Assembly (NCBI GenBank): GCA_021776025.1
Contig: JAJFGR010000007.1
Location: 310,001-374,000 of the forward strand
DNA from: Alphaproteobacteria bacterium
GTDB taxonomy: Bacteria > Pseudomonadota > Alphaproteobacteria > Micavibrionales > Micavibrionaceae
Reading direction: 5' to 3'
DNA length: 64,000 nt
Shown here: positions 61,594 to 63,944 of the stretch, in pieces
Numbering within the stretch: position 1 is the first letter of the stretch
Layout of the letters: every line of letters begins with the position of its first letter
Notes under the pieces: model-generated
Databases searched by the model: none
What the model was told of the DNA's origin: nothing
What the model saw: only the letters and a program-made list of their open reading frames with translations
Translations under genes and position numbers: made by a program

Positions 61594-63021
61594 TTAAGAC
61601 GAGTAGTAAAGCTTGTATTCGATCGGGTGAACCATGCTCTCGTAGGTTTCGTTTTCTTCTTCTTTGAGTGCGATATAAGAATCTAAAGCCTCCCCAGTGA
61701 AAACATCACCTTTTAACAGATATTCATGATCCTCGCGGAGTGCATCTAACGCGCTTCGTAGCGAATGACAGACAGTTGGGATTTTTGCGAGCTCTTCTGT
61801 GGGTAAATCATACAAAATATCGTCCATGGCTTCGCCAGGGTGGATTTTGTTTTCGATTCCATCCAGCCCGGCCATCACCATGCTGGCGAAAGCAAGGTAA
61901 GGGTTGGCAACCGGGTCGGGGAAACGAACTTCAACACGCTTGCCTTTTGGTGATGCGGAGTAGGGAATGCGGCAAGACGCGCTGCGATTGCGCGCTGAAT
62001 AAGCCAGAAAAACAGGGGCCTCATAACCCGGAACCAAGCGTTTATAGCTGTTGGTAGACGGGTTGGTAAACGCATTCAGGCTGCGGGCGTGTTTGATAAT
62101 GCCGCCAATATAATAAAGCGCTGTTTCGGATAGTTCGGCATAGCCATCACCAGCAAATAAAGGCTTACCGGCTTTCCACAGAGATTGGTGTACATGCATG
62201 CCTGAGCCGTTATCTCCGAATACAGGCTTCGGCATGAAAGTCGCGCTCTTGCCATAGGAGTTCGCGACATTCTGGACGGCATGTTTATAAAGCTGAATGT
62301 TATCGGCACTGTCGATAAGTGTTGAAAATTTAATGCCAAGCTCACATTGCGCTGGCGCAACCTCATGGTGGTGTTTTTCAACCTCAATGCCCATGCTTTG
62401 CATGACTGTGAGCATTTCTCCGCGAATGTCGGAAAGGCTATCAACTGGGCTTTCCGGGAAATACCCGCCTTTGGCTGCGGGGCGATGGCCCATATTGCCT
62501 GTTGGGTAATTGCGCCCGCTATTGTCAGGCATTTCTTCGCTGTCGACTTCAAAACCAACATGATTTTTCTGTGTGTGAACTTTAACATCATCGAAAATAA
62601 AGAACTCGGCTTCTGGGCCGAAATAGGCGGTGTCAGCGACACCACTGCTTTTTATGTATTTTTCTGCCGCCTTGGCTATAGAGCGCGGGTCTTTGTTATA
62701 GGCTTTACCGTCAGGGCTATAAATGTCGCAAAAGACCTTTAATGTTTTTTGGGCCGCAAATGGATCGATAGCCACTTTGCTAAGATCGGGTTTAAGCACC
62801 ATGTCTGAATTGTTTATTGGTTGCCAACCGGCTATGGACGAACCATCAAAGAAAATACCGCGATCCAATTTGTATTCATCCAGCCCTTCGGCTGCTTCCG
62901 TTGTGTGTTGCCATTTGCCACGCAAATCTGTGAAATTCATATCGATAAACTGAATGGCGTTATCTTTGATATATTTCAAAAATTCGTTGGTATTCTTAAA
63001 TTTTAGGCCATGTGCGCTCAC
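61594..63021 (-). CDS. glnA: Glutamine synthetase type I
   Basis: ATP-dependent amidation of glutamate. 475 residues. GTG start at 63021 with AAAGGA eight bases upstream; a longer frame would read through tRNA-His. Marks: FDGSSIAGWQ, EAEFFIFDDV, GNMGHRPAAKGGYFP, HHHEVAPAQCELGIKF, and NRSASCRIP. The adenylylation site is Tyr404 in LYDLPTEE, so control by GlnE is expected. glnB, the usual neighbour, is absent. Confidence 0.96.
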   Translation of the reverse strand: MSAHGLKFKNTNEFLKYIKDNAIQFIDMNFTDLRGKWQHTTEAAEGLDEYKLDRGIFFDGSSIAGWQPINNSDMVLKPDLSKVAIDPFAAQKTLKVFCDIYSPDGKAYNKDPRSIAKAAEKYIKSSGVADTAYFGPEAEFFIFDDVKVHTQKNHVGFEVDSEEMPDNSGRNYPTGNMGHRPAAKGGYFPESPVDSLSDIRGEMLTVMQSMGIEVEKHHHEVAPAQCELGIKFSTLIDSADNIQLYKHAVQNVANSYGKSATFMPKPVFGDNGSGMHVHQSLWKAGKPLFAGDGYAELSETALYYIGGIIKHARSLNAFTNPSTNSYKRLVPGYEAPVFLAYSARNRSASCRIPYSASPKGKRVEVRFPDPVANPYLAFASMVMAGLDGIENKIHPGEAMDDILYDLPTEELAKIPTVCHSLRSALDALREDHEYLLKGDVFTGEALDSYIALKEEENETYESMVHPIEYKLYYSS

Positions 63022-63044
63022 GGGATGGTTCCTTTTGCGTAAAA

Positions 63045-63121
63045 TGGGGCGACCGACGGGACTTGAACCCGCGACCACTCGGATCACAACCGAGGGCTCT
63101 ACCAGCTGAGCTACGATCGCC
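63045..63121 (-). tRNA. tRNA-His (anticodon GTG)
   Basis: 77-base gene with anticodon loop TTGTGAT, anticodon GTG, T-loop GGTTCAAGTCC, encoded CCA. An encoded G-1 faces discriminator C73 and the acceptor stem is GCGATCG/CGGTCGC. The CCA end is 23 bases from the glnA start. Confidence 0.95.
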
Positions 63122-63136
63122 ACAATTTAAGTGTCT

Positions 63137-63166
63137 TGTATAGGGTTTTGGCCTATATTAGGTCAA
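63137..63166 (-). promoter_or_regulatory. Promoter of tRNA-His (and probably glnA)
   Basis: On the minus strand TTGACC (63161-63166) and TATACA (63137-63142) are 18 bases apart, 15 bases before the tRNA 5' end. No other promoter for glnA fits in the 23 bases after the tRNA, and no sigma-54 element (TGGCAC-N5-TTGC) is seen. Confidence 0.6.
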
Positions 63167-63185
63167 GCAATTTAAGGAGTTCATC

Positions 63186-63944
63186 TTGGAAAATAACCCT
63201 GATTTATGGTTGAAGCAGCTTCCCCAGAAGAAAAATGACTCTCATAAATATGATTATGGGCATGCGTTGATCTATGGCGCGCCGGAATTAACGGGTGCAA
63301 CGCGGTTGGCGACTTCGGCGTGCGCACGCATTGGGGCAGGGCTTACAACCGTTTTGGCTGAGAAGGCGGATGTTTACCGCATGGCGCTTCCTGCGCACAT
63401 TATGGTGCGTGATGATTTGGCGTGGAGTGATCCCCGCGTTACTGCTCGGCTTTATGGGCCCGGGGGTATGGCTAAGGGTGTGAAGATTTCACTGAGCCGC
63501 CCCTGTGTACTCGATGCGGATGCCTTATTATGTATGCCGGAAGAGCTGAATGAGAATGTTGTGCTGGCTCCACATGAGGGGGAGTTTGCCAAAGCTTTTC
63601 CTGATATCGAGGGTTCTCGGGAAGAAAAAGCTTTAAAGGCTGCTCAGCAAACGGGCGCTGTTATTGTGCTGAAGGGCGGGGAAACCGTTATTGCTCATTC
63701 TGGTGGTCGTAGCGCAGTGAATACTCATGCTTCTCCATATTTAGCCACAGCTGGGACGGGGGATGTTTTAGCCGGACTGATTACCGGGCTGTTGGCTCAG
63801 GGCATGCCAGCATTTGAAGCTGCTTGTGCAGGTGTCTGGATCCATGGAGATGCGGCTTTGCGACATGGGCCAGGACTGGTCGCTAGCGACCTGATTGACT
63901 TTATCCCGCAAGTTTTGCAAGAAGGGCTTGGTTTTTCGCGGTAA
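63186..63944 (+). CDS. nnrD: ADP-dependent NAD(P)H-hydrate dehydratase (standalone)
   Basis: Repairs hydrated NADH and NADPH. 252 residues; TTG start at 63186, six bases after AAGGAG. Ribokinase-like fold with GHALIYGAPELTGATRLA, VLAPHEGEFAK, VIVLKGGETV and the active-site ATAGTGDVLAGLITGLLAQG. The N-terminal epimerase domain found in the fused Nnr proteins is missing, so the epimerase must be elsewhere or absent. The last 56 bases of the window after it show no gene. Confidence 0.9.
   Translation: MENNPDLWLKQLPQKKNDSHKYDYGHALIYGAPELTGATRLATSACARIGAGLTTVLAEKADVYRMALPAHIMVRDDLAWSDPRVTARLYGPGGMAKGVKISLSRPCVLDADALLCMPEELNENVVLAPHEGEFAKAFPDIEGSREEKALKAAQQTGAVIVLKGGETVIAHSGGRSAVNTHASPYLATAGTGDVLAGLITGLLAQGMPAFEAACAGVWIHGDAALRHGPGLVASDLIDFIPQVLQEGLGFSR

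Follow-up and report, generated by a model that had tools for sequence, protein, structure and literature searches.

A tRNA-His gene turned in place may set glnA behind a stable-RNA promoter in a Micavibrionaceae genome

The tRNA-tufB unit of Escherichia coli is a mixed tRNA-mRNA operon, whereas in the secG-leuU unit of the same species the mRNA lies ahead of the tRNA, unlike the tRNA-His-glnA order described here. Mixed operons are already known as a class, and in the part of PMC1183518 that deals with them the tDNAs of the known heterogeneous operons always come first; for the polycistronic secG-leuU and metT transcripts of E. coli, RNase P is named in a title cited by PMC3985628. For glnA itself, a related case is glnBA of Caulobacter, a glnA region of the same class, where IS3 elements inserted in PglnBA have time and again provided a promoter that restores glnBA transcription without NtrC, and where NtrC works at sigma-70 promoters (PMC10274813, in the portion cited); a sigma-54 promoter may thus not define the glnBA operon in all Alphaproteobacteria.

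The locus resembles operons such as tRNA-tufB in that the tRNA comes first, the protein gene lies close behind it on the same strand (23 nt) with no terminator between them, and the 5' end of the mRNA would be made by tRNA processing; it would share with secG-leuU and metT, as far as the cited title describes them, the action of RNase P on a transcript carrying both a tRNA and an mRNA. It differs from the mixed operons in that a metabolic enzyme stands behind a single tRNA, in a pairing that appears to have come from inversion of a cassette and to have exchanged nnrD for glnA. It differs from glnBA as presented in that portion of the Caulobacter paper in that glnB has been lost here and glnA would borrow the promoter of the neighboring tRNA, brought by inversion and not by an IS element. 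By analogy, a foreign promoter for glnA is an easy evolutionary step in Caulobacter, and the flip of a tRNA may be another form of it.

The window (the whole stretch of DNA analysed, 64,000 nucleotides) belongs to a genome labelled G000, assembled into 24 contigs (2,315,335 bases, completeness 99.98%); G001 is a genome of the same genus. Its minus strand reads, in order, promoter, G-1 and tRNA-His, spacer, and glnA (Table 1). ARAGORN places tRNA-His(GTG) at 63045-63120 and the Rfam tRNA model concurs (63.6 bits), in agreement with the first-pass annotation, which had set the GTG of glnA (63021) 23 bases after the CCA of the tRNA. The base before the tRNA is G, as is the G-1 of tRNA-His, in all 101 genomes with a tRNA-His in reach of glnA. 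By DNA similarity the genome holds one full-length tRNA-His; two other matches are partial and fall inside tRNA-Ile and tRNA-Lys genes. With a score over the TIGR00653 cut-off of 429, GlnA classes as a glutamate--ammonia ligase of type I, and its GTG start, with AAAAGGA ahead, is backed by the relatives, in which the tblastn alignment opens at query residue 1-3 in 77 of 111 loci.

Table 1. Features around the tRNA-His-glnA junction, in window coordinates.
Feature	Position	Strand	Evidence
glnA (475 aa), glutamine synthetase of type I	61594..63021	-	TIGR00653, 648.5 bits
23-nt tRNA trailer, also glnA leader	63022..63044	-	sequence; terminator scans negative
tRNA-His, GTG anticodon; G-1 (63121) and CCA both encoded	63045..63121	-	ARAGORN, Rfam
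tRNA-His promoter, CTTGACC (-35), 18 nt, TATACA (-10)	63137..63167	-	consensus and conservation
candidate outward promoter, now toward nnrD, opposite strand of the tRNA-His promoter block	63121..63167	+	weak; position and partial similarity
nnrD, NAD(P)H-hydrate dehydratase	63186..63944	+	TIGR00196, 161.3 bits; position in relatives

The pattern CTTGACC-N18-TATACA occurs once in the 64-kb window and in none of 100 shuffles, a count that is weak alone, since the site itself supplied the pattern. The relatives give better evidence that this is the promoter of tRNA-His: 81 of 101 genomes have CTTGAC in the 100 nt ahead of the tRNA, where shuffles give 1.8, and for tRNA-Leu the figure is 0 of 59. 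The tRNA-Lys gene of the same genome (L116:7112-7187) also has CTTGAC ahead of it, and the ORF behind that tRNA resembles, by eye, the start of an integrase.

The 23-nt spacer, TTTTACGCAAAAGGAACCATCCC, contains the ribosome-binding site (AAAAGGA, 63030-63036, 8 nt before the GTG). After the CCA it opens UUUUA, a possible RNase E site; the trailer opens TTT in 57 of 93 genomes with a divergent tRNA-His as well, so a U-rich trailer is not special to glnA. Two pattern scans found no terminator between tRNA-His and glnA, and between 61400 and 63400 the only Rfam match to reach its gathering score, with glutamine and other leader RNAs in the search, is tRNA-His. A structured glnA leader was considered and set aside, the 147-nt fold being not special (z -0.89). 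The best sigma-54 core at glnA has 3 mismatches and is no better than shuffles, and sites of this type across 109 glnA loci are likewise no better than letter shuffles; the claim that sigma-54 control is absent thus stands for the site, whereas RpoN itself is encoded.

Across the relatives, 111 glnA loci were handled, and 109 entered the glnA protein tree (101 with a tRNA-His in reach, 8 without), the second glnA of G086 and a 104-aa fragment of G025 being left out. Unscored in the family are 7 of 104 genomes without a glnA match, G032 and G107 (weak, paralogue-like matches only) and G068 (contig edge); unscored in the order are G044 and G054 (no match) and G047, G050, G053 and G125 (paralogue-like matches only). 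In the 101 genomes, with loci of the order-level genomes G126-G141 kept out of the counts, tRNA-His and glnA are divergent in 93 and co-directional in 8: 82 and 5 inside the family (n=87), 11 and 3 in the other families of the order (n=14). In the 93 divergent loci the gap spans 76 to 1066 nt, with a median of 190, whereas the co-directional gaps are 23 (G000), 35, 46, 104, 119, 139, 187 and 987 nt.

In a further set, 80 named-record glnA loci were listed, best matches only, with titles nearly all alphaproteobacterial and one Mycobacterium. Among these, 29 have a tRNA-His within the fetched 2.5 kb, divergent in 28, the sole exception being the record of G001 itself; 9 of the 29 correspond to genomes of this order, and the other 20 are all divergent. 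The divergent orientation is thus taken as ancestral, and by this comparison of gene orders the co-directional arrangement is derived and recurrent. A P-II match lies within the locus in 67 of the 80 listed named-record loci, and P-II stands just upstream of glnA in 6 of the 111 loci of the Micavibrio order, all in families other than that of G000. We infer that the old state was a divergent tRNA-His beside glnB-glnA, and that tRNA-His became the direct neighbor of glnA when the locus lost glnB.

The neighbors of the cassette are unchanged in this genome: nnrD and tRNA-Leu are oriented as in most relatives, and only tRNA-His with its promoter is turned. Wherever nnrD was found, it is directed away from glnA (52 of 52 loci: 45 divergent, 6 co-directional and 1 without tRNA-His); that no more than 52 of the 111 loci yielded it is partly due to short flanks. 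Of the 45 divergent loci, 16 have nnrD at most 60 nt behind tRNA-His and 21 at most 100 nt, by distances extrapolated from tblastn, which suggests that the older layout was often tRNA-His then nnrD, with glnA on the opposite side. tRNA-Leu lies on the strand opposite glnA in 56 of 59 cases, the exceptions being G001 and G048 (co-directional) and G064 (divergent); in G001 (L003) both tRNA-Leu and tRNA-His are on the glnA strand, and nnrD between them is not. CTTGACC is present upstream of tRNA-His in 7 of the 8 co-directional genomes, G048 being without CTTGAC, and the -35 element thus travels with the tRNA. Short stretches similar to part of a tRNA (for example GACTTGAACCCC and CGCGGGTT) occur just behind tRNA-His in several divergent relatives (L002, L012, L013 and L050).

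Within one clade whose spacing is compact, the -35 and -10 elements of tRNA-His enclose a segment that is itself conserved, reading TTGTCTTCT..TATGGTAGCTCTGG on the glnA strand. In the 49 divergent genomes with CTTGACC, a 16-base spacer consensus derived from those same genomes is matched at 11 or more bases by 17, against an average of 6.4 for shuffles. The flipped genomes with gaps below 50 nt (G000, G001, G074) match it at 8 of 16 bases, and G007 (co-directional, gap of 119 nt) still matches at 12; G035, G036 and G042 match at 4-6, scores that are uninformative, since many divergent genomes outside the compact clade do no better. The simplest reading of these sequences is a promoter facing glnA, overlaid on that of tRNA-His, which would have decayed once it no longer pointed toward glnA; its homologue in G000 would be the tentative plus-strand candidate of Table 1. 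Among 109 loci of the relatives, 32 (for example L028, L062 and L073) carry a GCATA-type palindrome (GCATAnCTGnnATGC-like) in the 300 nt upstream of glnA, against 0.6% of letter shuffles; G000 and the compact clade are outside these 32 loci, and it is possibly an operator that they have lost.

At the level of sequence, comparison with the relatives establishes that the arrangement is inverted, that the neighbors are unchanged, that the -35 element has gone with the tRNA, that the glnA-facing sequence is lost, and that 23 nt are too short for a separate promoter. The reading we consider likely is that this inversion put glnA behind a stable-RNA promoter, and that read-through from the tRNA-His promoter probably expresses it. 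With no evident promoter of its own for glnA, no terminator, no sigma-54 core and no leader RNA family, read-through is the best explanation, and co-transcription of tRNA and glnA, in a joint transcript predicted from the gene order, the simplest one. The chief competitor, which we judge unlikely, places a separate glnA promoter within tRNA-His or right behind it; the short distance would then be incidental, and the tRNA transcript would end or be trimmed before glnA. Promoters can overlap tRNA genes, activator-dependent or non-sigma-70 promoters escape consensus scans, and a transcription start inside the tRNA-His gene is compatible with the sequence. On the glnA strand, however, a consensus scan of tRNA-His and the gap scores at best 7 of 12, on a scale built on the upstream site, which gets 12 by construction; this result supports the earlier view that the only promoter-like sequence precedes the tRNA. 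A -10 element inside tRNA-His would moreover face the constraint on tRNA sequence, and the missing terminator and sigma-54 core weigh against this alternative as well. In other genomes it gains ground: four of the eight co-directional gaps measure 104-187 nt and one 987 nt, which leaves room for a promoter of its own, and judging from these gaps the dependence of glnA on tRNA-His is not general.

The co-directional state is scattered over the tree. The glnA protein tree (109 rows, a quick tree) requires 8 changes of orientation, and its strongly supported branches force at least 5, whereas shuffled orientation labels need 7.8 on average; the state is thus scattered, not clustered. A glnA DNA tree of 18 close relatives, where the truncated gene of G003 has a long branch, needs 4 changes (bootstrap range 3-4), and its well supported branches alone force 1; both trees are of glnA alone. 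Since the 18-row DNA alignment does not reject a tree that joins G000 to G001 (p-AU 0.303), and the promoters of the two are similar to each other, they may share one flip. Such scatter, with 8 changes for 8 genomes, is also what a phase-variable switch could leave, in which the tRNA cassette flips within the population and turns glnA expression up or down. This we hold to be very improbable: among five loci examined, no inverted repeats of at least 10 nt surround the cassette in the window (62900-63400), G001 or G005, and G006 and G007 show no more than short, imperfect pairs; the flipped junctions, moreover, are unlike those of divergent relatives, as fits old, fixed inversions. An assembly or binning error in this genome, conceivable in that many relatives are draft or metagenome-assembled genomes, has just as little to commend it, the site lying within a 794,635-base contig, the flipped junctions differing from those of relatives and the co-directional state recurring in eight genomes.

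The locus also departs from the Ntr-controlled glnBA operon of Alphaproteobacteria: glnB does not adjoin glnA, no sigma-54 type promoter was found at glnA, and GlnE, the adenylyltransferase for GS, was not found. The absence of the glnB partner, first noted for the neighborhood, extends to the whole genome, which gives 0 P-II matches. Across the 104 family genomes P-II is found in 32 (31 over cut-off), GlnE over cut-off in none, with 2 weak matches elsewhere in the family and a positive Caulobacter control, and RpoN in 95, this genome among them. For NtrC (TIGR01818) 1 of 104 is over cut-off, a model by which paralogues are inseparable (controls: 1 of 14 over cut-off, 12 of 14 matching). The usual layers of GS control are thin across the whole family. 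GlnA of this genome retains an LYDLP stretch although GlnE is over cut-off in 0 of 104 family genomes; in other species the adenylylated tyrosine lies in this stretch. On G086:C148 a second glnA (62% identity) shares its contig with the only over-cut-off NtrC match (671 bits), and this is possibly a contaminant contig. A link between the flip and loss of PII was considered and gave no clear association: a PII match is absent in G000, G001, G007 and G074 and present in the flipped G035, so the loss is not specific to flipped genomes.

As to the enzymes that could make the 5' end of glnA, the first-pass annotation had tied it to RNase Z or RNase E, and it is the second half of that proposal that survives. 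The genome encodes RNase E (491.9 bits, cut-off 326). For canonical RNase Z, the search of G000 gave nothing over the cut-off of 293 (best match 37.7 bits), a cut-off also missed by 5 of 14 control genomes; a divergent RNase Z is possible. Given these results, and a CCA that is encoded and has UUUUA behind it, RNase E is the likelier of the two, and it probably makes the glnA 5' end.

In the read-through reading, the ancestral cassette, placed between nnrD and glnA, would have joined tRNA-His to a compact promoter working in both directions. One direction would have served tRNA-His (often with nnrD directly behind) and the other, through what was presumably a promoter in the conserved glnA-facing sequence of the divergent relatives, glnA. 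In the lineage of this genome the cassette would have turned in place. RNA polymerase would now start about 9 nt before tRNA-His and continue through it into glnA; RNase P would trim the 5' end of the tRNA, RNase E would cut in the U-rich trailer, and glnA would be translated from a short processed leader. Its output would then track a stable-RNA (growth-linked) promoter and not nitrogen control, in a cell that has neither PII nor GlnE. As a general account, that a cassette of tRNA-His and two-way promoter repeatedly flips between nnrD and glnA, swapping the enzyme fused to the stable-RNA transcript, and that without PII and GlnE this places GS under growth-rate control with the 5' end of glnA mRNA coming from tRNA maturation, the proposal is tentative, and we lean somewhat against it in this full form.

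The literature on tRNA-mRNA operons, tRNA gene inversion and alphaproteobacterial glnA, covered mostly by titles and abstract openings and with few subscription journals, gave no report of this arrangement. What looks new is that an inversion in place, recurring among these genomes, gives a tRNA a different protein gene as its partner, in this case glnA. If the reading is true, one tRNA gene turned in place would move an enzyme of central metabolism off its own promoter and onto that of a tRNA, and would have done so several times; related species with and without a tRNA in front of glnA would then offer a natural comparison, within a group that is without GlnE and mostly without PII.
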